In this document: in pieces, positions 27,478-60,642 of the stretch
Layout: the number at the start of each line of letters is the position of its first letter
Numbering within the stretch: the first letter of the stretch is position 1
DNA from: Chrysoperla carnea
Lineage: Eukaryota; Arthropoda; Insecta; Neuroptera; Chrysopidae
Reading direction: 5' to 3'
NCBI RefSeq assembly: GCF_905475395.1
Contig: NC_058337.1
Span: 93,118,368 to 93,182,367 of the forward strand
DNA: 64,000 nucleotides
Made by a program: the position numbers and the translations under genes
The notes under the pieces: model-generated
The model's input: the letters and a program-made list of their open reading frames with translations, nothing else
Databases searched by the model: none
What the model was told of the DNA's origin: nothing

Positions 27478-29609
27478 ATGGAAAGCAAAATGGTTTTTAA
27501 AGTAAGTAAAACTGTGTACATTTAAATTAGTGCAAAATTTGTGTTATCTAGTGATAATTTAGTGCGTGATCCAATTAAAGACAGAATACTTGGATTATTA
27601 TTACAAAATAGGCTCATTTAAAGAAAATTTAATAACACAGTACAAATATATTTAAGGAAGCCCATACACTGCTTGACTTCAGATAATCTTTATTAAATCA
27701 TACTGATCAATTGCCGACTTGTGAACTCTTGTTTATCCCTTTTTTGTACTAAAATTGTCTTCATAAGAAAACAAAATATTTCTTGATGTTGAAAAATTCT
27801 TATTAAAGGAAATCTTTTTGAAATATTACAGTTCATTGTATTAGTATGCGCGTTAGCTGCGGGTGTAACTGCGTATCCAGGTTATTATGGCAATGCACAA
27901 GAAGAATATAGTGGTCATGGATTACAAAATGTTCAGTACGGTGGTTATGCAGCTGGTGGCGAACATTTGGCACATGTCGAACAGCATGAAAGCAAAGAGG
28001 AAGAACATGAAGATTTATATGTAAGATAAATTAATAATTTAGTTATTTATAAAAAGGTATTTACATTCAATTTTTATTAGGCCTACCCCAAATATAATTT
28101 CAAATATGGAGTAAATGATTATCATACCGGAGATGTCAAATCTGCTCATGAAGAACGGGATGGTGATGTTGTTAAGGGGCAATATTCGTTGGTGAGTTGT
28201 GAAAAATGCTACTAGTAATTTTCGCGTGTAGGAAAACCATATTTAAGGTTATTTATTGTTAGATGCATCCATGTAAACCCATAAATATTAATGTTTCCTC
28301 AAAAATATATTAAATTTCTTGTACATCACTGGCGTATTGTGGTTGGAACTTAGTTCATGGCAAAACTACATTTTTTTTACTAAATAAATGTGTTTTACCG
28401 ACTTCTATCGATAAGCTAAAAGTAGAGAACGGATTTGAAAAGGTAAAAGAAAAAGATCGAGATTGGTATAATATTTTGGTAAGACTCGTAAATTACACCA
28501 TAGCAAAATACTAGACGCGAGATAGGAGTAGGGAAATATAATAGCAAAACCATACAAATAAACTTTATTTCTGGATTTTATTGCATTATAGAAAATTATA
28601 AATGTTTTTTTACATTAAAAACTTCCCCACGCCAATCAGTTATACTCCTTATTCTCTTATTATTCCCCGTACAAATTCATACCGACTATCTTTGGAGGAT
28701 ATCTTTACTTATTGAACCGAACATTCAAAAGAAATCGATAAAATGATTTCAATTATTTACTTCAAATATAATTTATTAATTAAATACAATACCATTTATT
28801 TATTTGTTTATGTAAATGTAGTAAAAGTATCTGTTAGTGAGATATCGTGATATTCAGTGACTTGTATCGACTTACATATCATAAACATTTGAAGAAAAAA
28901 ACTCACTTAAGCGGATAAATAGTTTACTTATAAAATCATAAACATTCAGTTTTATTATGCTACTATCGAAAGCAGCTGCAAAAGCAATGTTGTACTTATA
29001 CAATGCGTAAAAGTAATCTTCATATTTTGAAAATTGAATTTTTCGAAAACTTAACGGAATTGAACATGTACCTATTGTGGAGATAAATCTCTATATCCCT
29101 ATATGAACATACTTTTTTTAAACATTCTGTAGAAATTTCTAGAAAGCGTGACACTGTTTTTCGGTGAATCCAGCAGACGTATTTATATTTAGAAATCATC
29201 TTACCATTTTCAAACATAAACTTAGAAACTCTAAACCAAGACTTCGTTTTTATACTTAGTATTGTATAGTCATTATCATTTTTATCACGTTATTTTAATT
29301 TTATCAAGAGGTAATCTCAGATGTATCATACTTTTTTTATATCAGCGACTTTTGAATCATTCTATACTTCAGATGGCACTCTAAAACAGGTTATTAAACT
29401 GTAAAAGATATATAAACCGATAATTTAATCAATAAAATTGTTACTCACAGGTGGAAGCCGATGGTTCTATCCGTACTGTTGATTACACCGCTGATAAACA
29501 TAATGGTTTCAATGCGGTAGTAACAAAAACAGCCGCAGCACATCCACATCATAGTGGATATCAATCAGAACACTCACAACAACAAGAATCACACGAAGGA
29601 CATTATTAG
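27478..29609 (+). CDS. RR-2 cuticular protein, four coding exons
   Basis: Exons are 27478-27501, 27832-28020, 28081-28191 and 29451-29609 (stop TAG); all introns are phase 0 with GTAAGT, GTAAGA, GTGAGT donors and AG acceptors. The 161-residue product has a signal peptide ([18 protein letters not shown] if translation starts at the second in-frame ATG, 27490), a Gly/His/Glu-rich linker, the RR-2 domain starting [20 protein letters not shown] and ending HNGFNAVV, and a His/Gln-rich tail. RR-2 proteins are secreted and bind chitin, mainly in hard cuticle. Unlike the five genes at 39-61 kb, an intron splits the RR-2 domain after GQYSL. AATAAA at 29914-29919 may end the transcript. Confidence 0.94.
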
Positions 29610-37059: not shown

Positions 37060-39440
37060 TTTTTGTAATTATTAGAAATAATCCCTTTTAATTTCCTTTA
37101 TTTTGATACCCTACTCGATAAGTTTTTTAAATTTCTTTTTTATTTACGTATTACTATTTTGATTTGTTATTTCAAAAACGTATATAAAAACACTTGGGTT
37201 TTTGAGACAAATATAATGAGGCCTTAAATGTTGAAATCCATTGAGCCGTTTGGAATTTTTCGAGGTAATAAAGAAATTTACAAACAAATATACATACATA
37301 ATTACAAGATACCTACGTGCGAAAAACATAACCACCCCTTGACAGTCGGGTAAAAGTTGCATTAGTAAATGTAGGTTAAGAGTATGTTTTGATTTTTGAT
37401 ATTATACATATTCAATAAAAGTTAAACGTACCTACATTATTTACTTTTTTTTTGGTCATGCTTTAATAAACACGACAATGAATAAATAAAAATATTAACA
37501 TCACATGTAATTTTAAAATTAATCAAAATATTTACTTTAATAATTTTGTGAGTGATTTGTAATGAAATAATAAAGGTCAGAAAAACTTAGATAAGGAAAA
37601 ACAACGAACGAAAAATGTTTTTTTTCAAGAAATTTTCTTGCATAGGTATTCATATACATAAATACTATAAGAAGAGGTGAACTGTTTCGAATTCGACATC
37701 AAATGTTTAGTTGAGTTTAGTCAAATGTTTAGTAGAAATGTTAATTTAATCTGTTGCTTTTTTACATGAATTACTGAAGTCCTGAATAATTTTTCGACCG
37801 ACCGGGCGCTCATTATTCTTGTAGGACGTCTTTATGACGAGCTTGAAACATTTTGTATTTGTGGAAATTATCAAAACTGCCAAGTTTTCATTCATGATGG
37901 CTAGCATATTCATTTAATGAAATGCACTTTTAAGTTAATAAAAAATACTACCACGACCCGTGCAGAATTCTGGAATGCGATACCCGTGGCTAAAAACAGG
38001 CTAAAGGTAAATGGTATAAAAAAGCAATACTAATTTACTATCTTTTTATTTATAGGCAATTTTATTACATATGTGATATATAAATTACATAATGAACAAA
38101 ATCTCTTTATATTAATTCTCTAACCTGATTTTTCTTAAGCGGTACATTTTTAGACCGTGAGTCTATTTTAGGCATTAGCCGATACGATATGTTTTAAAAT
38201 GTTAAATCATGGAATGTGATAATGGAATAAGACCAAGAGTCGAACCCAGGTCTTTTGGATTTATGCCAACTGCCTTTATCATCTAAGCCATATATACTTT
38301 AGGCATAGTGTGTAATTTTTTCAAATCAACGAATTTTTATTTTCGTTTATTAGTCATAATCAACGTATTTATTTATTATTTTTGTTTGTTTATACTAAAT
38401 TTTGTATACGTTTAGTAAAGTACTTTCTATACATTTATCTCAACTTTACAAATACAAAACTTACGTAGCCGTCGAAATTTATATACCTTAAACAACCATA
38501 ATACACTAACGTTTACACCTCGAACAAGTACAGAAATAAACAAAGCAGTGATAATCATCATTATTAGAATAAATTATTATAAAAAAGAGACTACTATAGA
38601 TAATAAGTAAAGTACTCGTGTACTTCATAAAACATAAGACAAAGCCTTCACCCACTGAAATAGGTAATCATTGTACCTAAGTATTATGTTTTCATTAAAT
38701 AACAAAAGGGCGTGTTTCTTTAAATACAAATTATTAGTTGTCAAAATACAATGATTTAAAAACAAAAGTATTCAATTCTAATACATATTAGAAACAACAA
38801 GCTCAAAATCATTATAATATTGACCTTAACCAATCAATATAATCTTATTTTGTTATAAAGGTAGTATAGCATTGGGAAGGTTCATATAGTTAACCACTTT
38901 TCTTTATAATTTAACCAAAAGACCATAGTTAGTAAAGAGAAAATAAAATTAGAGTTTTTTAATGACATCCTTAAAGAGATATAAAGTTATGCAAAAAGTC
39001 ACTATTAGGCTTGTCTTTGTTACATTTTACAGGAAATGGTTTATTTATGAAAAATTGGCAAGAGCTTAGGTTTTTGTCGATTTATTAAGATGTCAAGAGA
39101 ATGTGATTTTAACTATTTTATGAACAATATATTTAAACTAAGTTCCCCAATAATTTTTAGATTTAAAGAATATCTGAAATAATTAACCATAATTTATCGT
39201 AGTTAAATTTTTGTGTTGAAACTGTTTCCAATGATTAAAATAACAATTTTAAAATAAACGATGACAGGCAAGTGATCTTCTATATTGAGCAAAAGGGTTG
39301 AAAATTTATCTTTTCATATTTCGTTTCAAGAAAACCGAAAAATAAATTTCATACAAATATCTAATTGATGTGGTAATTATATTACATCGACAAGAGTTTG
39401 TAGGATACAAAAACTATTAAGTAAAGTGACAGTTAGAATT
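37060..39440. other. Gene-free stretch
   Basis: It holds a LINE-like tail near 37260-37360 (CATAACCACCCCTTGACAGTCGGG) and a tRNA-like fragment at 38231-38295. No exon was identified. Confidence 0.5.
38231..38295 (-). repeat. tRNA-like fragment
   Basis: On the minus strand TGGCTTAGATGATAAAGGC resembles an A box and GGGTTCGACTC (38237-38247) matches the B box. TTGG...CCAA could form an anticodon stem, but the loop lacks the conserved T and the acceptor strands do not pair. It is probably a tRNA pseudogene or SINE head. Confidence 0.5.
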
Positions 39441-39442
39441 TT

Positions 39443-39448
39443 TTTATT
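39443..39448 (-). terminator. Polyadenylation signal AATAAA for the 40 kb gene
   Basis: On the minus strand AATAAA lies about 135 bases after the stop codon. It is the first such hexamer downstream and so the likely 3' processing signal. Confidence 0.5.
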
Positions 39449-39583
39449 AGATATTTACAGAAGTATAAAAATTTCATCAAACTCAGCAGTATTTACAAGT
39501 ACCTATATAACAAAATTATCACAAATAGTGTACAATAATTTAAAATTAGCTTGGAAGATTTAAACAGATCAGTCATTGGCATC

Positions 39584-40477
39584 TTAATGTGCTCCATAGG
39601 CACCATAAGCTCCATATCCATAGCCTAAGCCGGCACCTAAGCCATAGCCATGGGCTAATGGGGCTGGTGCATGGTGTACTGTTGGTCCAACTTTCTTGAC
39701 TACTGCGTTGAAACCATTGTGGTCATCGGCTGTGTAGTCTACTACACGTACTGAACCGTCTGGTTCAACCAAAGAATATTGTCCTTTGACTACATCACCA
39801 TCACGTACTTCTGATTGAGATTTTACATCACCAGTATGGGCGTCCTTAACTCCATAATTGTAGGAGTATTTTGGATATGCCTGAATTGAATACAAACTAT
39901 TAATATAAATTGTGCAAGATGTTTATTAAAGATTAAAAGGATAGTTAGCTTCAAAGAATTATCATAGTAAGAAAATTTTTCGTCTTTGAAATTCGATAGA
40001 ATTAAAAAAATCCATAATATTAAGTGCAGTTATCCAACAAAATTTTATAAGTGTATTAATTTTGAAATATTATGGTATTCAGTTGATTAAGATGCCATTA
40101 TATCAGTCAACTTAATCAAATAAGCATGTTTCATTTATAAGTTAACAAGAGTTAACAATGCCAATAATTGGGCTACTTACATAATAATCTAAACCATGAC
40201 CAGCCGCTCCTGCATATCCTAAACCACCATATCCAGCGCCGGCATAACCCAAGCCCGCTGCACCATATCCTAAACCAGCAGCTCCATATCCTAAACCAAT
40301 AGCTCCATAACCTAATCCATATCCAGGTGCAATACCAGCTGATGCCATTGCACTAAGTGCTAAGGTGCAAAGAGCTGCCTGTAAATCACACAAAACAAAA
40401 ATCCGTTAACAAATCACTGATTTTAAATCCTGCCGTTTAATTATTTTTAGTTTATGTCTTACAATAAAGAATGCCAT
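39584..40477 (-). CDS. RR-2 cuticular protein, cluster copy 1 (169 aa)
   Basis: Exons are 40477-40463 (MAFFI), 40378-40181 and 39880-39584 (stop TAA); both introns are phase 0, donors GTAAGAC and GTAAGT. Residues 1-20 form the signal peptide ([20 protein letters not shown]). Residues 22-65 are heptad-like GYGAAGLGY repeats, with one Ile variant (GYGAIGLG) and GYGGLGY. The RR-2 domain begins [20 protein letters not shown] and ends [12 protein letters not shown]; the tail is Gly/Tyr-rich and uniquely ends GAYGAH. The product should be secreted and bind chitin through the RR-2 domain. Introns are nearly identical to those of the 49 kb gene, but the 3' untranslated region is unrelated to it. Codon use matches its paralogues. 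Confidence 0.95.
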
Positions 40478-40530
40478 TGTTAGGTTGTAGGGTTGTTTTG
40501 TCTGTTTGAACTAATCAACTAATTTAATTT

Positions 40531-40568
40531 AACTAATGATTGTAAATAATAAGTCAATGATATTTATA
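40531..40568 (-). promoter_or_regulatory. Core promoter of cluster copy 1, altered initiator
   Basis: On the minus strand TATAAATA (40568-40561) lies 34 bases before TTAGTT (40536-40531). The other four cluster genes have TCAGTT at this place, so this copy carries a C-to-T change in the initiator. A CT-rich box TTCTCCCCCA is further upstream at 40600-40591. Confidence 0.75.
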
Positions 40569-41259
40569 CTAAAACTTGAAAAAGGTGTTTTGGGGGAGAA
40601 ATATTTGTAAATATTAAAAAAATAATCAAGTCATGCATATTTATAAAAATTTTATGAAATATATTTTGTATTAATATATATTTTTACATATACAGCTAAG
40701 CAATCGGAAATCGTTTTATTAGGACAATTCTCTGTTTTTAGTAACAAAAGCAACGTAGACTGCATAAGAATCAAAAAGATCGATATTGTGCACGGGAAAA
40801 GGTCTTTCAGTTATACATTATTATGCGACTTGACAAAATAATATTTCTTTTAAGACCTGACAATAGATAAGGCAATTGTTATTACAAAAATGGGGCACGT
40901 GGAATACCTGATTTTTTTTGACGTCAACAAAATTTATAATCATAACACCATCGAAATGAGACCGACGACATTACGAAAGTTCTGACTTATATATTTATTG
41001 TTTACGGGTATACACGACATTTTCAAATAAAATTGCATTAATAAGATGATCTATAAGGAAGGATTTTTGAAAATTTGACTATTGTGAACAAGGAGATGAA
41101 TGAATACATGATAATCAATCAACTGATAAAATACTTAAACGATTTTAAAAATTATTTCACCTATAGAAAATAAAGTTATCAGCGAGTAATATGTTTTGTA
41201 TTTTATTTTCAAAGACGTACGTATATACGTTCATGTTCATTTTTTTCTGATCGATATCG

Positions 41260-41450
41260 CGAGAAGTCAAATGCCATCGACTACGTTGAGATGTCGATCG
41301 TCGATCGAAACGTATTAACGGCAATATGATCTGAAAAAATTCATAACATTCGGTCGAGTCCTTTCGATTCGGTCGAGTATTTATTTAATTTAATTTTTTA
41401 TAACTATTTATTATGCTGAGAAGTTATACGTGTGGATCTCACGGGTCAAT
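41260..41450. repeat. Family B repeat fragment, copy 1
   Basis: Shared phrases with 50510-50680 are GATCGAA-A/G-CGT-A/G-TTAAC, TTTCGGTCGAGT-like blocks, TTTTTTATAACTATTTATTA and TGCTG-A/G-GAAGTT. The AAGTTATACGTGTGGATCTC end also matches 55085-55105 (AAGTTAGTCGTGTGGACCTT). Confidence 0.65.
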
Positions 41451-41576
41451 TTGATTCTATTTGTAAGTTAATTTTTTCCAATTTTCTACATTTAAGGATA
41501 TAAGTTTGTTGTAACTCTCAAAATACTTATTTTAGAACCTATTTTAAGTAACATTTATCCAAATCAACTCCCGAAG

Positions 41577-41651
41577 TATCTTGTGGACAAAAAAATGCGA
41601 CAAATATATCTGTTGTACAACAAAGTGTTGCATTTTTTCGTTCACAAGATA
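41577..41651. repeat. Short fold-back with palindromic centre
   Basis: TATCTTGTGGACAAAAAAATG... (41577-41602) is inverted at 41626-41651 (...CATTTTTTCGTTCACAAGATA) with a few mismatches. The loop itself holds the perfect palindrome GTTGTACAAC (41612-41621). Confidence 0.85.
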
Positions 41652-44185
41652 CATTACGTGGATTTACGGACACTTACTCTAATCAAAATAAAATTTCTAA
41701 ATATAAAAAGATAAGATAAAAATAATTCGAGTTTGATTGTGCTGTAGAAATCTAGGCTGTGCCATTGATAGAAATAATATATAGATATGAATTAGTATAT
41801 TAAAAATTCTAGAAAGTGATTGGATTCCAATTATCTATAATTATTATATTATTGTTATATAAAAAGCATTTATTTACCTTTGTGTAATAGTCATAAATAA
41901 TTGAAGGTTTCCTTAAAATATTTCCTATAGGTGGTGTATATTAAACATTACCTAGTTGTGGTAATTCTTTTATAAATTAGATTGTCTTAATTTCGTGTAA
42001 TATCAGAAATAATAAGTGGTAAGTATTAATTTTATGTTAAATGATGCACAAAATAGGTTAATGTTATTAATAGGTCTAACTGAATTCTAGGGCAGCCTAT
42101 ATATTTCTAGGTTAACTTTTTAATTAGGTTTAAGGAAAAGCATCAAAATATTAAAGAAATCAGCGCTTCATACGATTGGTTGACAATTTCTAATTTTAGA
42201 GTGTCATGAAAATACTCGATTTAAGTAACGCAGTTGTTGTCGAGTAAGCAAGCATTGATAATACTAATTTTAGATGTGTCTGCGGAAATGCCTTAGACCA
42301 TTAAGTTACATAGACTGGGCGTCAAACGATTTTAGGCGTGCCAACATCTGAGGTGATGGCTTAGGCCAAATAAATCATGGCGGCGATGTAGAAATGTCAA
42401 AACAAAGTTTGTTGTCATACTTGTTATTGTAGATTCGTAAGAAAAAATGTAAAGTGAGACATGATAAGTATTTTTTTAAGTCAAATGACAATTTGACATT
42501 CTATGTATGTTATTGATAACTGTCCCTATTTTTTTTTGATAAGTGTTTTTTTGTGATAAATGTCCCTCGCTGACCCAAGCAATTAACTCAGGGAAATGTG
42601 GAACCTCTTATCACTGTAATCTGTAATGAAAAAATAAAAAATAAAATAAACACATATCTAATTAAAAAATAAAATCAACATATAGCTTATTATACCACAA
42701 AGATTTTTGTTAAAAAAATTTGTCTATATTTTAGTTACCCTATAACATTTTTTTTAATTTGTCTATATTTTAGTTACCCTATAACACGTTCTTTGAAATG
42801 CCAAACCCAATATTTTAATGGATTGTAATAATTTTCATTTCTTGATTGGAAAACAATAGCTTTTTAATATCTTTTTGAATAAAAAAGACATGCCCAGTTA
42901 TTCAGTTAACAAAATTCTTGCATATCGTTAACTATTACTGAACTGTTATACCTTAATATAAGCTCCACTTTGATATTGTGGTTGCTCCCTGAATAACTTT
43001 TGAGTTAACCATTCGATGCTTGATTAAATCTAATATTCAAGAATTTTATCTGTCAGCTCCAAAAACAGTGCAAAAGAGGTTGTTTATTTTAAGTTATCAT
43101 GGGTACTGACCTTGAATTTATAATTTTACGAAAAATATTTACAGCTAATTTTTCAATTTCAAAAAGGAAAAAGAAGTAATTAAATCAATTTTAAGAAAAA
43201 CAATCCATATTTTTATAATATTTGTAAATTGATAAAAAAATTACGCACTTACATAGAATTATTTTAAAATACTTGTTAATCAATAATTAATCATTATTAG
43301 TTAAAAATTTATTATTTAATTGATTTTTGTGTTTTAACTACGTCCTGACATTGACTTACATTTTTTTTTTATACAATAATATCTTTTGTTTCTTAATAAT
43401 TTTCACTAAAAATATTTAATCTAATTAATAAATAATCATGAATAAAACACATAATTATATATTTAATGGTTATATTAATTTTTTTATTTTTGCAAGGCGA
43501 ATTTTTTGTGTATTTTAGAATAAATGTTGTTATAAATTCATATCAGAATATAATAATTATTTTAAATATTTAATGATTACTTAAATTCTAGTCATAATAT
43601 ATTATTATAAATAGTCAAAATCCGTCATTGAGCATGCTTAATTTTTGCATGGAAAAATTTTGCAGGAGATCGTTTAAAATATGCTCCTGAACGTATAATT
43701 GCAGGTTGCCGGTGGGTCACTTGGTAGAATAATGTTTAAACAAATTTTTTTTTAAAATAAGTAATATTGATCGAATCGCTTCGGAAATTTTTTATGATAT
43801 AATTGGGGTCCATATTAACAAAAAATGTTCTTGACATTTTTCTCTAAATTTTCAAGTTTTAGAGTAAAAATTCGTAAAATTTGAAAACAATTTTGTTTAC
43901 TATTTTTATCCCTTAAAAACTCTATGAAAATGTCAGATTTTTAATATGTATAAAATTTTTATTTGTAGTGTAATGCTTACACAAAAATATGCCGCAAATT
44001 TTTGGCCTAGTTGCATTTTAAATGCTTGATTGTTAAATGTTAATAACGATTTTCTGTGCTAGAAAAATGGAATTTTCACCGATCGACTCGGAACAAAGAA
44101 AAATTAACAGAAAAGTTCGAAAATTATATTTTTCCACAACACAGCCCCCTAGAAAATTAGAAAAACGGTTTTTGCAAATCCAAAA

Positions 44186-44685
44186 ATAAATGTAGAATCA
44201 AAAATTGTGATATCTTTAGCCATTTTCCCGGAAAACGGCCATATATAATATTAATAAATATTTTTGATTCTACTTTTTTATACCATGAATAAATGTTATA
44301 TGTAAGGTATACTTAGTTTAGTCCCAAGTAACGCTTAAAAATATTGATGCTAAGAACAAAATTTTGGTATAGGTGTTCATAGAATCATCTAATTAGTCCA
44401 TTTTCGTTTGTCCGTCCGCCCGTCCGTCTGTGGACACGATAACTCAAAAACGATTAAATATATTAAACTGAAATTTTTACAGCGTACTCTGGACGTAAAA
44501 TGTGAGTCCTTAGAACCCATCTTGTAAACCGTTAGAGATAGAACAAAAGTTTAAATGTAAAAAAATGTTCTTTATTAAAAAATAAACAACTTTTGTTTGA
44601 AACATTTTTACGTAAACATCACTGTTTTACCCGATTTTCGGGAAAATGGCTTAAGATATCACAATTTTTGATTCTACATTTTTCT
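44186..44685. repeat. Fold-back repeat interrupted by family A copy
   Basis: The left arm (44186-44238: AATAAATGTAGAATCAAAAA ... CCATTTTCCCGG) is matched inverted at 44632-44685 (CGGGAAAATGGC ... TTTTTGATTCTACATTTTT). Nearly all of the intervening DNA (44275-44632) is a truncated family A element, which therefore inserted into, or was captured by, the loop. Confidence 0.85.
44275..44632 (+). repeat. Family A repeat, copy 7 (3'-truncated)
   Basis: It starts TTTTTTATACCATGAATAAA, includes GTCCGTCCGCCCGTCCGTCT, and stops at CATCACTGTTTTACCC; the terminal AACAATTAACTC block is absent. Confidence 0.85.
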
Positions 44686-45747
44686 CAGTAAAACAAAATT
44701 CCGAATTGTTTTCATAAAGTTAATGGTTTCCGAGATATTGGTGAAAAATCTTTTTTTTTAAGTAAATATACAGCGTCACTTATCGCAGTCCCAGCACTTC
44801 CGAGACTGCACATAAGTAAGATCTTAAACAAGCTGAACCTTCCTTTTTTGTTAGTTTTTTTTTTCCTTTAAGTAAGTCCACCCAAAAAGGTTATTTTGAT
44901 ACCAAAATTTAATTATAAGACTACTTCTGACAGAAAATGTGTGTATGAGCTAATAATGAATCACTTATAGTTAGTTTACTTATAATAAATACAATTTATT
45001 TAACTGTAATTTTACAATAATATTGTACTTACAGATATAATAAGTAGCAACAAGTAATAATATGATTATGTAATTTACTTATAGGTACATATGATATATA
45101 TAATTATGCAATTGAATATGTGGGAAAGAATGTAATATGTTTATTATTATTAATATTATTAATAACAATAGTAATTTTAAATTACTTTTTTTTTATTTAT
45201 TTATTTAATAATTACTTGTTATATTTTTATTTATTGAACAATTTGTAATCGTAATATGAATAATAAATCAATAGATAATGTTTAATAAAGTATAAATATC
45301 ATCATATGTTAACCTGGGCAGAAATTCAACCTTTTTTTTACAATTCATAAGCATTTTTCTATATCACAATGGCTAATTATCAGATTTTCGATTTGCAAAG
45401 AAATACTCCCAAAAAAAAGCTTCTGGGAAGCTAAATTATAATTATATTTTATAAATATAATAAACCATATGAATTTAACCAGAAAATCATTTACATGTGG
45501 TTTCCATATAGATACAAAATGAATAGTGACTATGTAGGGACATTGCCATTCAAATACATACTGCAGTAGAGCCTGAATAATTTGAACACTCGATAATCCA
45601 AAACGAAGTCCCACACCGCTGTCTACGCCTGTGCGAGAATAAACACTAAATATAAAAAATCCTAAATTGCTACACGAATCGAACATATCACAAATATAAT
45701 AATGGGGTTTAACCTCCGTTTTGCTGACATACGTTTTATCACAGAGA

Positions 45748-45826
45748 ACACCCACATCATTATTTGTTAATCTTTATTTATTAAATTACATTCATATTTA
45801 CAATATTACATTTATGATGTGGGTGG
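45748..45826. repeat. Short inverted repeat, ACCCACATCAT arms
   Basis: CACCCACATCAT at about 45749 is mirrored by ATGATGTGGGTG near 45813-45824, with an AT-rich loop of about 50 bases. It may be a tiny MITE. Confidence 0.6.
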
Positions 45827-46042
45827 AATCGGTTACTTCGTTCTTATCAAAGCCACGACAATGTGATCAATTCCACAGCTTCCATTAATTAATTACAATT
45901 ATTCACATTGCCGCTGCCTGGAGTATCACAAATATACTTTACACTAATAAAAAGCAAACGTATTCATTTAAATATTATTAGTAAACATTTATGAATATGC
46001 ATGACAAAAAAACGCAATTTTTTTCCTTTTTAACAGAATATA

Positions 46043-46110
46043 TTCCTCCCTCAATACACTTTCAACTTTTAGTATAAATATCATTGATTTATTATTTACA
46101 ATCATCAGTT
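46043..46110 (+). promoter_or_regulatory. Core promoter of cluster copy 2
   Basis: TATAAATA at 46073-46080 precedes the initiator TCAGTT at 46105-46110 by about 34 bases. A TTCCTCCCTCAA box (from 46043) lies about 30 bases upstream of TATA and is conserved in the paralogues. Confidence 0.85.
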
Positions 46111-46163
46111 AAGTTAAATTGGTTGATTGATTCAAACAAACAAAACAACCCTACAACCTAACA

Positions 46164-46815
46164 ATGGCATTCTTTATTGTAAGACATACACTAAAAAAAA
46201 TTTTTAAATCAATGATTTGATAACGGATTTTTGTTTTATGTGATTTATAGGCAGCTCTTTGCACCTTAGCACTTAGTGCAATGGCATCATCTGGTATCGC
46301 ACCTGGATATGGATTAGGTTATGGAGCTGCTGGTTTAGGATACGGAGCTGCTGGTTTAGGATATGGTGCAGCAGGCTTGGGCTATGCTGGCGCTGGATAT
46401 GCTGGCTTAGGATATGCAGGAGCGGCTGGTCATGGATTAGATTATTATGTAAGTAGCACACGTTAATACATATTTAAAATTATGTTAGACAACTGTACTT
46501 AATATGTGTTTAATTCAGGCATATCCAAAATACTCCTACAATTATGGAGTTAAAGACGCCCATACTGGTGATGTAAAATCTCAATCAGAAGTACGTGATG
46601 GTGATGTAGTCAAAGGACAATACTCCTTGGTTGAACCAGACGGTTCAGTACGCGTGGTAGACTACACAGCTGATGATCACAACGGTTTCAATGCAGTAGT
46701 AAAGAAAGTTGGACCAACAGTTCACCATGCACCAGTCCCATTGGCCCATGGCTATGGTTTAGGTGCCGGAATAGGCCATGGTTATGGCGCTTATGGTGCT
46801 TATGGAGCTTATTAA
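46164..46815 (+). CDS. RR-2 cuticular protein, cluster copy 2 (169 aa)
   Basis: Exons are 46164-46178 (MAFFI), 46251-46448 and 46519-46815. Introns are short (72 and 70 bases), phase 0. The signal peptide is followed by GYGLGYG and three perfect GAAGLGY heptads, [14 protein letters not shown], then GHGLDYY at the exon end. Exon three holds the RR-2 domain ([10 protein letters not shown] to HNGFNAVV) and the tail [15 protein letters not shown]. The product is predicted to be a secreted chitin-binding structural protein. The signal region reads MASSG where paralogues have MASAG or IASAG. Intron two is an internally deleted relative of the 300-base intron in copies 1 and 3. This copy and copy 3 face each other in the palindrome and share 3' sequence. 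Confidence 0.95.
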
Positions 46816-47075
46816 ATTGCTAAAGATGTCTATGTCAACAGATTACCTTCGATCTCAATATTTCAGTCATAAATTATGAACGACTACAAAAACGATGTAA
46901 AAATTATGTACCAATTACGCTTTACCTTTATGTTTTTTATCGGAGTTTGACTTTATAATTTCTTTTATTTATTTGTATAATACTTTTTGTAAAAAGCTTT
47001 GCTGTTTGAAAAATGTTTATAAATCTATATATTTTTATTATGTGTATATTTTGTTAATTAATGTGTCAATATTTT

Positions 47076-47081
47076 AATAAA
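47076..47081 (+). terminator. Polyadenylation signal AATAAA of cluster copy 2
   Basis: It lies about 260 bases after the stop. The same hexamer, in the same context (TTTTAATAAA), is at 49050-49045 in the inverted copy 3. Confidence 0.7.
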
Positions 47082-47280
47082 GATATTTATTTCTCTTAAA
47101 GTTACTTTTGTGTACGAAGCGTTCCTATTCAAGCAAATTTTGTCCGTTAGCTTTCGATTTATCTCAGGTTTTGACTTTGTAAAGAATTAACAATGCTAAA
47201 TCAAAATAGGCTACTAAAGATTTCTTTCATTCTGATGTACCGATAAACAGCTTGGATGTAATTGTTCTCATTTCTAGAGA

Positions 47281-48770
47281 AAATCATTTGAAAATTTTAA
47301 AAATGAAAAATTTTAAGCAGTAATAGTTTGGAATCAGGTGCTGTCGCATGCAGAGTTGATTGTACAACAGTTTGAAATCAAATAAAATTAAATGAAATTT
47401 TCTTCTTTCTTTACTTGAAATGAAGATTTTTAGCACTGAAAAACCAGCATACTTTGGGTTTTGAATTTTTAAGAGGGACTCTCCAAAGGCAATTGGCGGA
47501 AGATAACAAACTTTATAGGATTATATCCGTTACTCAATATAATGGGTAAGATGGAAGAAAAATTGAAACAACGACTTTACAAGTCATGTAACAGGTCCGT
47601 ACTTGCTCACGTAATCTGCCTCAATCTTATTTAACGTTGCTTTGTTTGGCGAATATTAAGACTTCAATTTCAAAATAGTTGTCTTTTAACGTCTTCGAAA
47701 GTTCCTTTGCCATAGTCACCCGTAGTTCTCCTCCAAGGAACTGTAGACTGTAGAAATTGTTTGTGGATATCACTGTGTCAGTATGGGCTAAAACGTCATA
47801 CTAATTTGACCATAGAGGGAATAGTATGGGTTTTAGGCCCATGCTAATAGGTTAATTAGATCAAATAGTATCTGTCTCTTTACCATTCCAACATTGTAGC
47901 AAACGCCAAAAATTTCATACCGTGTAGGGTGCCCGGTTTTTGCATTCCAAATTTTATTCCATCCATATATCTTGCCTGGATATCAACGAACTGGGTTAAT
48001 TTGATCCGCGTTGCCCTACAGGAAAAGATACCGCATGCCACATTATATCAATTACAACTGATTCGGTGTAACTAAATAGTGTGTTTATTTTTTAAGAATT
48101 AATTTTAAGGATTGACTAACCCGTCTAACTTAAGTTTTTATATCAATTGGTTTGTTCTATATGTTTTTTCTATTTTATATAACTTTCTAAAACGTATTTA
48201 TTTACCTCGAGGTATTTAATTATTATGATGTATTATGGATAAAGACTGGGCTAGGAACTATAGTTTAAACATATATTGTATTCATTCATTATTATATGTT
48301 GACGATAAAATAAACTTATTTTATATTCTTCTTTACTCTGATTTTTTTTTGGAATAATTATATCACGTTTTACTAGCGATTTCCTTGAAGAGGAACCACT
48401 CAAATGAGCAACCAATAAAAAGTCATATATAAGAGTCATTTGATCAGATTTGTATAAAATTTTCCAAACAGCAAAGCTTTTTATAAGAATTATTATAGAA
48501 ATAAATAAAAGAAAAATACAACAAATTCTCATTCTATTTATTCCACTTATATCTATTACAATTGTGGTCTGTGAGCTGAAGAGGCAAACTTACTGTTTGA
48601 TGGTTCGATTTGATTTCAAGCTGTTGGAAAATTTACTGTCTGTGGGTCTCTGCATTCAACCGCACTTGATTCCGAACTATCACCACTTAAAATTTCATTT
48701 CATTTTTGGGGTTCGTTTCCAAGTGAAAGCGGGCCTAATTTTAGGGCATTTTGAGGGATTATGATTTCCA
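47281..48770. other. Palindrome spacer, no gene seen
   Basis: Unique sequence between the arms. A plus-strand open frame (48450-48764) has no recognisable motif. Its base composition is slightly richer in GC around 47560-48030 than the surroundings. Confidence 0.5.
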
Positions 48771-49044
48771 AATGTTTTTCTGAACGAATAATGATATCTA
48801 ATTGGTTTATCGATACACCAGAATGAAAGAAAACTATAATAACCTATTTTGATTTATTTCCGTTCTGAAATATTAAACTAGATTTTTAAATATTTTAAAA
48901 ATAATTTTTTTTCTCTACATTAAAGATAATTGAAGACATGGGCAGTATATCGGGAGTGATTTATCAAAGTCAACTCTGAAGTAAATCGAAAGCTACTATA
49001 AAAAATTTGCTTGCACAAAAGTAATTTTAAGAGAAATAAATTTG

Positions 49045-49050
49045 TTTATT
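49045..49050 (-). terminator. Polyadenylation signal AATAAA of cluster copy 3
   Basis: Minus-strand AATAAA about 265 bases after the stop codon, in sequence homologous to the signal of copy 2. Confidence 0.7.
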
Positions 49051-49314
49051 AAAATATTGACATATTAATTAACAAAATAAACAAATAAAAAAATATATAT
49101 ACATTTTTATAAGCATTTTTCACACAGCAATGCTCTTAGTAAGAACTTTTATATAAATAAATAGAAAAAATTATAAAGTCAAACTCTGATTAAATAATTC
49201 AAGGTAAAGCGTAATTGGTACATAATTTTTACATCGTTTTTTGTAGTCGTTGATAATTTATGACTGAAATATTGAGATCGATGGTAATCTGTTGACATAG
49301 ACATCTTTAGCAAT

Positions 49315-50182
49315 TTAATAAGCCCCATAAGCACCATAAGCGCCATAACCATGGCCTATTCCGGCACCTAAACCATAGCCATGGGCCAATGGGACTGGTG
49401 CATGGTGAACTGTTGGTCCAACTTTCTTTACTACTGCATTGAAACCATTGTGATCATCAGCTGTGTAGTCTACAACACGTACTGAGCCGTCTGGTTCAAC
49501 CAAAGAGTATTGTCCTTTGACTACATCACCATCACGTACTTCTGATTGAGATTTTACATCACCAGTATGGGCGTCTTTAACTCCATAGTTGTAGGAGTAT
49601 TTTGGATATGCCTGAATTGAATACAAACTATTAATATAAATTGTGCGAGATGTTTATTAAAGATTAAAAGGATAGTTAGCTTCAAAGAATTATCATAGTT
49701 AGAAAATTTTTCGTCTTTGAAATTCGATAGAATTTAAAAAATCCATAATATTAAGTGCAGTTATCCAACAAAATTTTATAAGTGTATTAATTTTGAAATA
49801 TTATGGTATTCAGTTGATTAAGACATGCCATTATATCAGTCAACTTAATCAAATAAGCATGTTTCATTTATAAGTTAACAAGAGTTAACAATGCCAATAA
49901 TTGGGCTACTTACATAATAATCTAAACCATGACCAGCCGCTCCTGCATATCCCAAACCAGCATAACCAGCGCCAGCATGGCCCAATCCCGCTGCACCATA
50001 TCCTAAACCAGCCGCTCCATAACCTAATCCATATCCAGGTGCGATACCAGCTGATGCCATTGCACTAAGTGCTAAGGTGCAAAGAGCTGCCTATAAATCT
50101 CATAAAACAAAAATCAAATCACTGTTTTTAAATCCAGGCGTTTAATTATTGTTAGTTTATGTCTTACAATAAAGAATGCCAT
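49315..50182 (-). CDS. RR-2 cuticular protein, cluster copy 3 (162 aa), mosaic gene
   Basis: Exons are 50182-50168 (MAFFI), 50090-49914 and 49611-49315, phase-0 introns of 77 and 302 bases. The product has a signal peptide, only two GAAGLGY units (so seven residues shorter than copies 1 and 2), an unusual GLGHAGAGY variant, the RR-2 domain and the tail [15 protein letters not shown]. It is predicted to be secreted and bind chitin. The 300-base second intron is almost identical to that of copy 1, whereas the last half of exon three, the 3' untranslated region and the upstream promoter resemble copy 2. Such a patchwork fits gene conversion from copy 1 into a copy-2-like gene; deletion and uneven divergence are alternatives. 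Confidence 0.95.
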
Positions 50183-50227
50183 TGTTGTGTTGTAGGGTTG
50201 TTTTGTTTGTTTGAACTTATTCAATTA

Positions 50228-50290
50228 AACTGATGATTGTAAATAATAATTCAATGATATTTATATTAAAAGTTGGAAAGTTGAGGGAGA
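50228..50290 (-). promoter_or_regulatory. Core promoter of cluster copy 3
   Basis: On the minus strand TATAAATA (50265-50258) precedes TCAGTT (50233-50228). The conserved box TCTCCCTCAA lies at 50290-50281. Confidence 0.85.
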
Positions 50291-50397
50291 GATATAACCT
50301 GTTGAAAAGGAAAAAATTGCATTTTTTTGTCATGCATATTTATAAAAAATATATATTAATAATAATTTGTCCTGAATTTACATTTGCTCAGTTTCTT

Positions 50398-50680
50398 TAA
50401 CCTCCCAGTATAGGAAGTTATTGTAATGGGTCCGATTGTTCAACATATCCTTAAGTTGCATGCCCAGTATAAGGCACTAACACCAAAAACTGATATCGAA
50501 TTGTTTGAGGAATCGATCGAAGCGTGTTAACAGCAAAATGATTCGAAAAGAATTTCATAACTTTCGGTCGAGTTATTTCGAGTCGGTCTAGTTTTTATTT
50601 TATTTTAAAACAATTTTTTATAACTATTTATTATGCTGGAAAGTTCGTGTAGGTTAAGGATCACACAAGACCCTACCCAT
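50398..50680. repeat. Family B repeat, copy 2
   Basis: It opens TTAACCTCCCAGTATAGGAA and GTTATTGTAATGGGTCCGAT, as the 54.66 kb copy does, and its later part matches the 41.3 kb fragment. It lies upstream of cluster copy 3 as the 41.3 kb fragment lies upstream of copy 1. Confidence 0.7.
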
Positions 50681-53600
50681 GACTTGCTTTTAAGTTAATA
50701 TGTAGTTTATATTGTAATTTTGGTAATTATAACTTGTAGTTGTCGCTGAAGCTGTCTCAATAAAGAGGCGAAATGTACAAATAGATCGGATGCAATGTTC
50801 TGTACTTCAATTTGTTTATACACAATATACTAATGTTCGTCAGGTTGTTTTGTCTGGGTCGTCTAGTAATTGTGACATTATATTTGGAGGAGTGTTACTA
50901 AAAAGTAACACAGCCTGAGGAGAATAAAGAAGAATTCAAAAAGATTTCGTAATGTGTTTCGTATCTTGTATTTCAAATTGTCACAATATAACTAAATCTA
51001 AGAACCGCCTTAAAACCTACACGGAAGATAAGGAGAGTAGAAAAAACGTCACTTATTAGTGAAAAGTATATGGAAAACTAGATTATACAATATGGAAAAG
51101 TCGATCTTTGTTTTTGGAAAAGTCGAACCGTTATTATTATTAGTAGCAATTGTTAAATGGACATCAGTTTCATAACAACTGTAAATTTGGGTATCGTTGC
51201 GGCGTTGCACAAGTACATAAATTTGTAAAATAATTGAGCTTGCAACAACCAAAAGCATATCAATATTAAAATACTTTTCAAAATATTTCTGTGGTTTGAT
51301 AAGTGGAAGTATGTGTGTTATTAAATAAGTAACATATTATTTACAAATTAATTTCTCTAATAATAAATCATTTTTATTAATTACAAATATTGTATTTCCA
51401 CTACAGTTTATGTTAGTTCAATCCCGTGGATTGCCAAAATACCTAAAAATTGCCAAAATATTAAAGCAACTGTTAAGCAATTTAAGGTTTCTCGGTCATT
51501 TGTTTTTAAAAAATATACTTAAATTATCATATTTAACGTCTGTCTGCAGGTCTTAAGCAGCGGGAATGCAAATTATGGCTTATACAATTAGAACCACACA
51601 AATCAAATAGAGAAGTGATAGGGAAGATGTAGGTTTTCAACGAATTTTTATAAGTTTTCACATTGCAATAGATATATGCTCGAAATTTCTAAAACAAACC
51701 CTTGTGTCCACGTTATGATTTTGTTTTTGTTTTTTTTTTTTTTCATAAAAAAACTTAACGTTTTCAATAGTAAACATGCTTACCTAAAAATTTCATGAAA
51801 ACATCCTTATTTTGCATATCTCTATTGGCCTAAAAATTTATATGATCATATAAAATCTCATAAACTTTCACGTTGACCGTTTGAAACTGTTAACACGAAG
51901 TTTTTATTTTGACAAACTTTTAATTATTTTGATCTACATTTTTTTCTTGTACATTAAGGTTATTCCGCGCGAGGAAAAAAATTTTAGTGGTTGTTATTTG
52001 CAATAAAAAAATTGGTTATAGGAAATTCAGAAATACGATTATATAAAGGGTATTTGGTAACTCGATTGCCTTCTGGAAGGAGATTATACTCGAGCTTCTA
52101 CTCGTGCCTTATAATGCATGACTCTCCAGGTAGAGCTCTCTTAGTGTATTTCACATTTTGTAGATCAAAACAGCTAGCACTACAAAAACTATAACATTAA
52201 AGCGTAACCAAGGTGGTTTTTTCAGTTTCTCAATAATTGAGGGGCTGATAAATGTAATTATCAGAAGAAAAGTTGGTAAAACACATATATGGTATCACTA
52301 TGGTCTAAGTGCCTCTCGTGGAATCTCAATATAATCTAACCAAACCTGGGGCATATAACTGGATCTGGATCACGCTTCAAATAACCACTTGATGAGAACT
52401 GTAGAGCTACAAGTCACAAAAATTTTTTAACAAGTTGACTCCTTCAAAAAAGGTTACTCAAAAAAAATGATTATACAGTTGGCTGGCGCATAGTGTATAA
52501 AAGATATGCTACTCTTTTGCTCTTTGGTACTACCTCTTGCAGACCTATAGCGAAATGATGAAAGTGACAGGTTTAAATGGGACAAGAAAAATTGTGCTAA
52601 TCTATATTGAGTTTTCGGATAAATATTTCAAACAAAACATAATTGGTTTATTTCAAGAAACAACTTTTTATTTTGAAGTATACCTCTGTGTCAATTATCA
52701 GTTTTAAGACTAAAGTAACTTTTAAATGACACGAAAGGACAAGGTCAAATTTATAATTTGCATGATAACAAACAATAGGTGATAGAAGTACATTAAAATG
52801 AGCGCCTTGCTTTTCATTTATTCAAGAGAATAATTGCAGTATTCTTAAGTTATTCAAATTACATTTCAATCATTTAATTTAGTTATTATATTATGCAATA
52901 CCATATTATCCATTTGTACACGAACAATTTTAACTTTTATTTTTATTTTTCATAAATAGTTAAAAAAAAATTGGTCCCCAAATTCATTTAAACTACACTT
53001 CTCGAAAATTACTAATCGTAGAATACAAAAAAGATACGTGCTTCCAAAGCTGTGATAGAGCTTTCACTTACTAGAGCTTCCACCCTCAAAAAATTCAAAA
53101 CGGAAACTTGGACACCCGAAAGATAAGAAAACAATAAAAACTTTTATAAAATACAAATTATGTTTAAGCAAGACAAAATAACCATATTTCAGGTGCATTT
53201 TGATACCAAACCCGGTTTTCAAGCGTAGTTTTCGATATATATATATACACTTTTCTAGAATATATTCCCAATATTCTCCGAATCATGCTTAAATCTTCAT
53301 CTATCCTTAAGGGTATGCTTTGGTACCTTTTTTTATTCTCCAAAAATTGTTTTCGAGATATCGAAAGTTATCTAAAATTAGCTTAAAAGGTAAAAACTTA
53401 AGCTAACTAACTACACGTTTCTTGGAAACTACGTCAGCAAAAAACTTTGGGAGCTAAAATATGAAATAATTAGCAAAAAATTTACCAATTAATCTCAACA
53501 CAAAAAAAAATTCTTATAAACAAAAATACATAGTCGGGATAAAAGATTGTGCTTCATTTACAGTGTTTTTATTATAGATGAGGACTATCTTTCAAATTTT

Positions 53601-55478: not shown

Positions 55479-55568
55479 AAGGTCATTTTTTATGAAATAT
55501 AAAAGTTCTCCCTCAATAAATGGATATTTTTAGTATAAATATGGTTGAATTAATAATAATAATCAGTT
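55479..55568 (+). promoter_or_regulatory. Promoter of cluster copy 4 with a nuclear-receptor half-site
   Basis: TATAAATA at 55534-55541 is 31 bases before the A of TCAGTT (55563-55568). TTCTCCCTCAAT is at 55506-55517. AAGGTCA at 55479-55485 is a consensus nuclear-receptor half-site; FTZ-F1 and HR3, which time cuticle gene expression during moulting, bind such sites. The same arrangement recurs in copy 5. Binding itself is inference. Confidence 0.75.
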
Positions 55569-55622
55569 CAATTAAATATTAGTTATTTGACTACAATACA
55601 AGAATCAACCCTAAACATAACA

Positions 55623-56281
55623 ATGGCATTCTTTATTGTAAGACAACAAGTGAAAATAGTTTTTAAATCTGTGTTTGTTTAATAAATATTTTGTGTTTTG
55701 TAGGCTGCTCTCTGTACCTTAGCACTAAGTGCAATCGCTTCAGCTGGTATTGCACCTGGATATGGATTAGGTTATGGAGCTGCTGGATTGGGATATGGTG
55801 CAGCAGGTTTGGGCTATGCTGGTGCTGGATATGCTGGTTTAGGATACGCAGGAGCTGCTGGTCATGGTTTAGATTATTACGTGAGTAGTTAGATTAAAAA
55901 TTGAAGTTATTGGGGATCAAATCGAAGTTTTATATCAATTAACTATTTACTCTTTCATAGGCATATCCAAAATATTCTTACAATTATGGAGTTAAAGACG
56001 CCCATACTGGTGATGTAAAATCTCAATCAGAAGTACGTGATGGTGATGTAGTCAAAGGACAATACTCTTTGGTTGAACCAGACGGTTCAGTACGTGTTGT
56101 AGACTACACAGCTGATGACCACAATGGTTTCAACGCAGTAGTAAAGAAAGTTGGACCAACAGTACACCATGCACCAGCCCCATTGGCTCATGGTTATGGC
56201 TTAGTTGCTGGTTTAGGCCATGGATATGGAGCTTATGGCCATGGTTTACGTCATGGATATGGAGCTTATGGTGCTTACTAG
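55623..56281 (+). CDS. RR-2 cuticular protein, cluster copy 4 (170 aa)
   Basis: Exons are 55623-55637 (MAFFI), 55704-55880 and 55961-56281 (stop TAG), with phase-0 introns of 66 and 80 bases. The signal peptide reads IASAG at its end, shared only with copy 5. Two GAAGLGY units are followed by [14 protein letters not shown] and GHGLDYY. The RR-2 domain is the cluster consensus. The tail is longer than in its paralogues because of an extra segment, [14 protein letters not shown], and reads GLVAGLGHG. It should be a secreted chitin-binding cuticle component. With copy 5 it forms a direct tandem pair sharing intron one almost base for base. Confidence 0.95.
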
Positions 56282-59857: not shown

Positions 59858-59950
59858 AAGGTCATTTTTTTAAATAAAATATAAAAGTTCTCCCTCAATT
59901 AATGAATATTTTTAGTATAAATATGGTTGAATTAATAATAATAATCAGTT
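59858..59950 (+). promoter_or_regulatory. Promoter of cluster copy 5
   Basis: AAGGTCA at 59858-59864, TTCTCCCTCAAT at 59888-59899, TATAAATA at 59916-59923 and TCAGTT at 59945-59950 repeat the arrangement of copy 4 with nearly the same spacing. Confidence 0.75.
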
Positions 59951-60004
59951 CAATTAAATATTAGTTATTTGACTACAATACAAGAATCAACCCTAAACAT
60001 AACA

Positions 60005-60642
60005 ATGGCATTCTTTATTGTAAGATATCAAGTGAAAATAGTTTTTAAATCTGTGTTTGTTTAATAAATATTTTGTGTTTTGTAGGCTGCTCTCTGCACC
60101 TTAGCACTTAGTGCAATCGCTTCAGCTGGAATTGCACCTGGTTATGGATTAGGTTATGGAGCTGCTGGATTAGGATATGGGGCTGCTGGTTTAGGATACG
60201 GTGCAGCAGGTTTGGGCTATGCAGGCGCTGGATTAGGATATGCCGGAGCTGCTGGTCATGGTTTAGATTATTACGTGAGTATTAAGATTAAAAAGTAAAG
60301 TTATTGGGGGTCAAACCGAAATTTTATATCAATTAAATTTTTAATGTTTAGGCATATCCAAAATATTCTTACAATTATGGGGTTAAAGACGCCCATACTG
60401 GTGATGTAAAATCTCAATCAGAAGTACGTGATGGTGATGTAGTCAAAGGACAATACTCCTTGGTTGAACCAGACGGTTCAGTACGCGTAGTAGATTACAC
60501 AGCTGATGATCACCATGGTTTCAACGCAGTAGTAAAGAAAGTTGGACCAACAGTACACCATGCACCAGCCCCATTGGCTCATGGTTTAGGTGTCGGTTTA
60601 GGCCATGGATATGGAGCTTATGGTGCCTATGGTGCCTACTAA
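60005..60642 (+). CDS. RR-2 cuticular protein, cluster copy 5 (164 aa)
   Basis: Exons are 60005-60019 (MAFFI), 60086-60274 and 60352-60642, introns phase 0 (66 and 77 bases). After the signal peptide come three GAAGLGY heptads and [11 protein letters not shown], lacking the GYAGLGY unit of copies 2-4. The RR-2 domain reads [10 protein letters not shown] where the other cluster genes have [10 protein letters not shown]. The tail is the shortest ([20 protein letters not shown]). It is a predicted secreted chitin-binding protein. Promoter, leader and intron one are near-identical to copy 4, so the pair duplicated recently. AATAAA at 60831-60836 ends the probable 3' untranslated region. Confidence 0.95.

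Follow-up and report, generated by a model that had tools for sequence, protein, structure and literature searches.

The window, a 64,000-nucleotide stretch of Chrysoperla carnea contig NC_058337.1, contained the cuticle gene g49, one of seven close copies, of which five lay within the window and two (g65 and g71) just past its end. These seven genes were taken from 12 matching stretches in 94 kb for their domain identity of at least 96.9%, and the stretches at 75765-75962 (77%), 88099-88362, 28081-28194, 29442-29534, and 9278-9424 were excluded. All seven displayed a common layout: exon 1 had 15 bases, intron 1 had 66-84 bases, exon 2 was rich in glycine, and exon 3 encoded the chitin-binding domain. 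A 66-residue stretch of this domain was the same in g40, g46, g49, and g55. Genes g40 and g49 were located on the minus strand and g46, g55, g60, g65, and g71 on the plus strand. The g49 product, which was the one searched, matched PF00379 (Chitin_bind_4) with an E value of 1.2e-16 (61.2 bits, cut-off 25). By resemblance, the seven genes were presumed to belong to the RR-2 subclass. They differed in the length of intron 2: 300 bases in g40, 302 in g49, 70 in g46, 80 in g55, 77 in g60, 98 in g65, and 1020 in g71. The gene models within the window were as follows:

49315 to 50182, minus strand: cuticle gene g49, a spliced open frame (sequence-based model) encoding 162 aa
g49 parts, minus strand: exon 1, 50168-50182; intron 1, 50091-50167; exon 2, 49914-50090; intron 2, 49612-49913 (302 bases); exon 3, 49315-49611
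39584 to 40477, minus strand: cuticle gene g40, sharing tract T1 (see below) with g49; intron 2 at 39881-40180 (300 bases)
46164 to 46815, plus strand: cuticle gene g46, sharing tract T2 (see below) with g49; short intron 2 at 46449-46518 (70 bases)
55623 to 56281, plus strand: g55, close paralogue used as outgroup
60005 to 60642, plus strand: g60, close paralogue used as outgroup

At 28081-29534 there was a more remote cuticle-like coding match, whose domain was split between two stretches separated by about 1.2 kb, which are probably separate exons. Exon 2 of g65 (L009:1102-1503) was 402 bases long, compared to 177-198 bases in its six sisters, and contained extra glycine-tyrosine repeat units.

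Genes g46 and g49 were located in the two arms of an older inverted duplication, which gave colinear inverted matches in four pieces at 72-89% identity:

45970 to 47383, plus strand: left arm, holding g46
48608 to 50367, minus strand: right arm, holding g49

The matching arms were in inverted orientation, separated by about 2-4 kb, and g40 and g49 were in direct orientation 9.7 kb apart. The distal promoter, the 3' flank (80% identity), and the colinear inverted matches toward the repeat centre all reflected the older sisterhood of g46 and g49. The spacer of the inverted repeat harbored, at 48446-48533, a stray third copy of part of the 3'UTR common to g46 (46959-47026) and g49 (49103-49191).

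The sequence comparison was applied to g40, g46, and g49 box by box, with numbering by g49, and with the 1020-base intron 2 of g71 masked as N in the alignments. Differences per aligned column are given in the order g40-g49, g46-g49, and g40-g46:

Distal promoter, 50347-50257: 22/77, 9/78, 18/74
Proximal promoter, 50256-50183: 8/74, 8/74, 7/82
Intron 1: 7/77 (9.1%), 7/65 (10.8%), 7/72 (9.7%)
Exon 2 up to 49953: 11/138, 8/138, 10/159
T1: 3/362, 13/132, 13/132
Exon 3, 49588-49461: 5/128 in all three pairs
Exon 3, 49460-49315: 17/146, 2/146, 17/146
UTR, 49314-49201: 27/59, 2/113, 28/59 (the values with g40 compare unrelated sequence)
Further 3' to 48995: 102/180, 40/203, 102/179 (the values with g40 compare unrelated sequence)

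Two low-divergence tracts were thus seen, and between them the three genes were about equidistant:

49589 to 49952, minus strand: T1, common to g40 and g49, composed of the last 39 bases of exon 2, the whole intron 2, and the first 23 bases of exon 3
39858 to 40219, minus strand: counterpart of T1 in g40, located by base counting
49201 to 49460, minus strand: T2, probable tract common to g46 and g49, composed of the second half of exon 3 and the first approximately 114 bases of the 3'UTR

The initial annotation had read g49 as a mosaic of g40 and g46, and this proved to be real, with corrected limits. Intron 2 of g49 was, as it had stated, nearly identical to that of g40: 297 of the 300 aligned bases were the same (99%), with three substitutions and one 2-base indel, and exon 2 identity of the same pair was lower at 93.8%. 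Genes g40 and g49 differed at 3/362 columns (0.8%) in T1 versus 70/655 (10.7%) outside it (Fisher 6e-11, for edges chosen from the data), and in non-coding sequence at 3/300 columns of intron 2 versus 37/228 of upstream sequence plus intron 1 (Fisher 1e-11). Across the 70 intron 2 columns alignable with g46, g40 and g49 showed no difference (0/70), while g46 differed at 12/70. When intron 2 was searched against the genome, two places matched, g40 and g49, although the lack of a match in such a search does not prove rarity; with these two matches, T1 was regarded as neither a mobile element nor a dispersed repeat, and a transposon in intron 2 was unsupported.

A fragment test with no preset edges, run from -165 to the stop codon, gave a g40-g49 fragment matched by 0/2000 shuffles at both penalties: (i) 49952-49508 (443 columns, five differences) under the stricter penalty and (ii) 50186-49361 (824 columns, 34 differences) under the laxer one. 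The control pair g40-g46 was matched by 23 and 21 of 2000 shuffles. When the 3' flank was included, this control also reached 0/2000 and the test was not specific, so that only the runs from -165 to the stop codon count. Fourteen consecutive g40-like informative sites (49956-49619) were reached in none of 20,000 shuffles. Such shuffles presume a uniform rate along the gene, an objection that the non-coding-only comparison answers in part. The best BIC segmentation of g40-g49 had four parts, with the high-identity part at 49952-49487 (464 columns, six differences).

The initial annotation had proposed an interior tract copied from g40 into g49 and beginning in intron 1. The exchange between g40 and g49 was supported; its start was moved to the end of exon 2 (49952), and its 3' edge was placed no finer than 49589-49487, because the first part of exon 3 was conserved in all pairs. 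The direction had to be dropped, as no site distinguishing the donor from the recipient was found in the alignment. Nor was the early part of intron 1 nearly identical between g40 and g49 as had been claimed, since the whole intron had 7/77 differences plus a 7-base gap in g49, no closer than the other pairs; the early part did look g40-like, with a 12-base piece present in g40 and g49 and missing from g46, g55, and g60. At four intron 1 sites g40 and g49 agreed against g46, but at least two outgroup genes carried the g40/g49 state, and g46 may therefore be the changed gene there.

A scan of 21 gene pairs with intron 2 and the 3' flank excluded (205 gap-free polymorphic columns) gave no pair that survived correction. 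The best pairs were g46-g55 (p 0.004), g65-g71 (0.005), g55-g60 (0.007), and g40-g49 and g46-g60 (0.028 each), the g40-g49 signal being a weak block spanning exon 1 through exon 2; g46-g49 was absent among the nine pairs listed. T1 therefore rests on intron 2. Taken together, these comparisons give good support to an interior tract of putative conversion involving g40 and g49.

The second half of exon 3 and the early 3'UTR followed g46, as the initial annotation had it, and the 3' region of g40 bore no recognisable kinship to that of g46 and g49. Genes g46 and g49 differed at 4/259 columns in T2 versus 37/483 in the remaining gene sequence excluding T1 (Fisher 3e-4) and versus 40/203 (20%) in the adjoining approximately 200 bases of 3' flank (Fisher 1e-11); for the exon part of T2, the contrast between g46-g49 (2/146) and g40-g46 (17/146) had a Fisher value of 5e-4. 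The outer edge at 49201 was set by segmentation, at a clear drop from 95.5% to 79.9% identity, and the inner edge at 49460 was picked by eye from the site list. BIC segmentation did not separate T2 from the rest of the gene, giving one g46-g49 segment at 50115-49201 with 95.5% identity, and the fragment test, again limited to the stretch between -165 and the stop codon, gave 5/2000 at one penalty and 171/2000 at the other (21 and 23/2000 in the g40-g46 control). T1 and T2 had no detectable difference in divergence (3/362 versus 4/259, Fisher 0.46). The g46-like 3' end of g49 had been ascribed to the palindrome; the inverted duplication of g46 and g49 was confirmed, while the 3' end is probably a second young tract and not simply inherited from that palindrome.

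On the two sides of T1, the distal promoter grouped with g46, as did the end of exon 3 and the 3' flank, and the proximal promoter, intron 1, exon 2, and exon 3 at 49588-49461 were equivocal. The promoter had been said to track g46, which held for its distal part and not for its proximal part, where g49 was equidistant from both genes. Derived sites were polarised by outgroup. Those in the promoter united g46+g49 six times, g40+g46 once, and g40+g49 never; intron 1 had one derived site (g46+g49) and exon 2 one (g40+g49). All five derived sites of intron 2 united g40+g49, although this count is weak because outgroup introns align poorly. In exon 3, 4/4 derived sites united g46+g49, and so did 22/26 in the 3' flank, where the count is weak because g40 is unrelated.

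Three fixed topologies were compared for each segment. A uniform topology, which the initial annotation had set against a mosaic, was absent in the point estimates across segments: (i) for promoter plus intron 1, (46,49) was best, with (40,46) at AU 0.179 and (40,49) at AU 0.022 (KH and SH 0.078); (ii) for exon 2, (40,49) and (46,49) tied, and (40,46) was 0.72 log units behind (AU 0.027); (iii) for T1, (40,49) was best; (iv) for exon 3 at 49588-49461, (40,46) was best by 0.63 log units, with both others at AU 0.0493, although AU values deserve little weight where likelihoods lie so close together; and (v) for the second half of exon 3 plus the 3' flank, (46,49) was best and the others were rejected (AU below 0.005). 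The tree of everything except T1 gave (46,49), weighted by the 3' flank, in which g40 has unrelated sequence. The T1 tree alone was not decisive, the other two topologies having AU 0.128 and 0.13; it failed to reject them because only 70 intron columns were alignable with g46, outgroup intron 2 aligned poorly (intron 2 of g55, g60, and g65 had 45-54% identity with those of g40, g46, and g49), and g71 intron 2 was omitted.

The likeness of g40 and g49 could be explained with no conversion at all, if the ancestral intron 2 had been retained in g40 and g49 but partly deleted in a rapidly changing g46. The short intron 2 of g46 aligned, across two gaps, to three pieces of the long intron (its start, its end, and a piece in the middle), and g46 was the odd one out at several intron 1 sites; g46 has probably lost two stretches of intron 2, to judge from this alignment, and the deletion that the initial annotation had offered as an alternative is in that respect probably true. 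Such loss accounts for the length but not for the identity of the long introns, since g40 and g49 differed by 1% in intron 2 compared to 9% in intron 1, 8% in the portion of exon 2 preceding T1, and 11-29% in the promoter, and we hold this explanation to be quite improbable. Still less probable is that selection kept intron 2 constant, for example as an enhancer or a structured RNA: its 99% identity exceeded that of exon 2, but structured or catalogued RNA found no backing, with no excess RNA structure in intron 2 (z -0.20) and no Rfam match at the gathering score within 39000-51500, and g46 manages without most of the intron.

A hybrid made by a single unequal crossover, with a g40-like 5' part and a g46-like 3' part, would agree with the one clear switch within exon 3. 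Against it stand the six derived distal promoter sites uniting g46 and g49, which require at least two switches, and the promoter plus intron 1 tree, which disfavored (40,49) by AU, though less so by KH and SH; we give it hardly any credence. An upstream duplication common to g40 and g49 was considered for the match of 41301-41425 with 50513-50645 (82.7%) and was rejected because this match sits in a dispersed repeat, so that it lends the crossover no support. For the repeat upstream of g49, 40 of 1705 first-look candidates were scored, giving at least 69 matches, and the g40 copy was not among the matches listed. Fragments of a dispersed repeat occurred upstream of both genes, and similar stretches were seen on contigs C1 to C5. 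That an assembly or polishing artefact made the two introns alike deserves equally little credence, given that three substitutions and a 2-base indel persist between them and that the flanks are distinct on both sides.

The preferred explanation is that T1 and T2 were made by ectopic (interlocus) gene conversion in the cuticle-gene cluster, after the older g46/g49 inverted duplication; we consider this joint history likely, with confidence lowered because the support for T2 was weaker. Genes g46 and g49 would have arisen by the older inverted duplication; later, approximately 310-460 bases around intron 2 would have been copied between g40 and g49; and, probably about as recently, approximately 260 bases comprising the end of exon 3 and the start of the 3'UTR would have been copied between g46 and g49. 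The observed basis is low local divergence, in T1 relative to its flanks and in T2 relative to its 3' flank, from which we infer repair-type copying and two separate events. Under the model of ectopic conversion, a break in one copy is repaired on the other copy as template, as described in PMC3924832. Tandem 21-base coding repeats were present in exon 2 of g40 (40243-40319), g46 (46310-46366), g55, and g60. Repeats of 9 bases closed exon 3 in g46, g49 (49318-49348), and g60; the repeat finder listed no 21-base array in g49 exon 2. By counting, the g40 21-base repeat started 24 bases from the edge of T1 and the g49 9-base repeat lay inside T2, an arrangement that is suggestive of, and by analogy would fit, repeat-linked onset of conversion.

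Conversion among the CPR cuticle genes of Drosophila was the subject of a 2009 paper, whose author we take to be Cornman. As reported there, interlocus gene conversion occurs between specific pairs in tandem arrays, and conversion of cuticle genes, non-neighbours included, was already established (PMC2793513). In D. pseudoobscura, conversion between Ccp84Ab and Ccp84Ad skips an intervening gene (PMC2793513), just as that between g40 and g49 skips g46. The same source describes converting genes of the 84A array as accompanied by coding-region repeats, with tracts starting near them, an inversion with breakpoints at such repeats, and a 67F array that converts without associated repeats (PMC2793513). 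The coding region was homogenised in Drosophila, in 84A chiefly near the R&R consensus and in 67F throughout (PMC2793513), whereas the clearest tract here was intron-centred and known from one genome. The g40-g71 cluster resembled the RR-2 arrays of Anopheles gambiae, compact arrays of clustered, nearly identical cuticle genes for which concerted evolution was proposed (PMC2259329). Three Anopheles CPR genes are given there as at least 98% identical in coding sequence with differing introns and UTRs (PMC2259329), the reverse of T1. A review of ectopic conversion in Drosophila treats linked duplicates with tracts and has larval cuticle genes among its case studies (PMC3924832), although it is a general review concerned with other loci. 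Intron-centred conversion in cuticle genes was named in none of the titles and abstract openings of the literature found. The intron-centred tract is a mild oddity, and one tract is not a pattern.

T1 would record conversion more cleanly than homogenised coding exons do, because most intron sequence is unseen by protein selection, and it could help to distinguish conversion in cuticle genes from selection that keeps their proteins alike. Gene trees of the cuticle family depend on the piece chosen. It is conceivable, though we regard it as unlikely, that conversion in this array starts near intron 2 or near the 21-base coding repeats that immediately precede it, with introns rather than the chitin-binding exon being most homogenised; if true, a conversion hotspot would be visible where protein selection does not interfere.

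Genes g55 and g60 may share another homogenised stretch, although its signal lost significance on correction. Positions 55486-55785 of g55 and 59868-60167 of g60, 300 bases that begin in the promoter and reach exon 2, were 96% alike, with 0/80 differences in the proximal promoter, and the early 3'UTRs of the two genes differed by approximately 40%.
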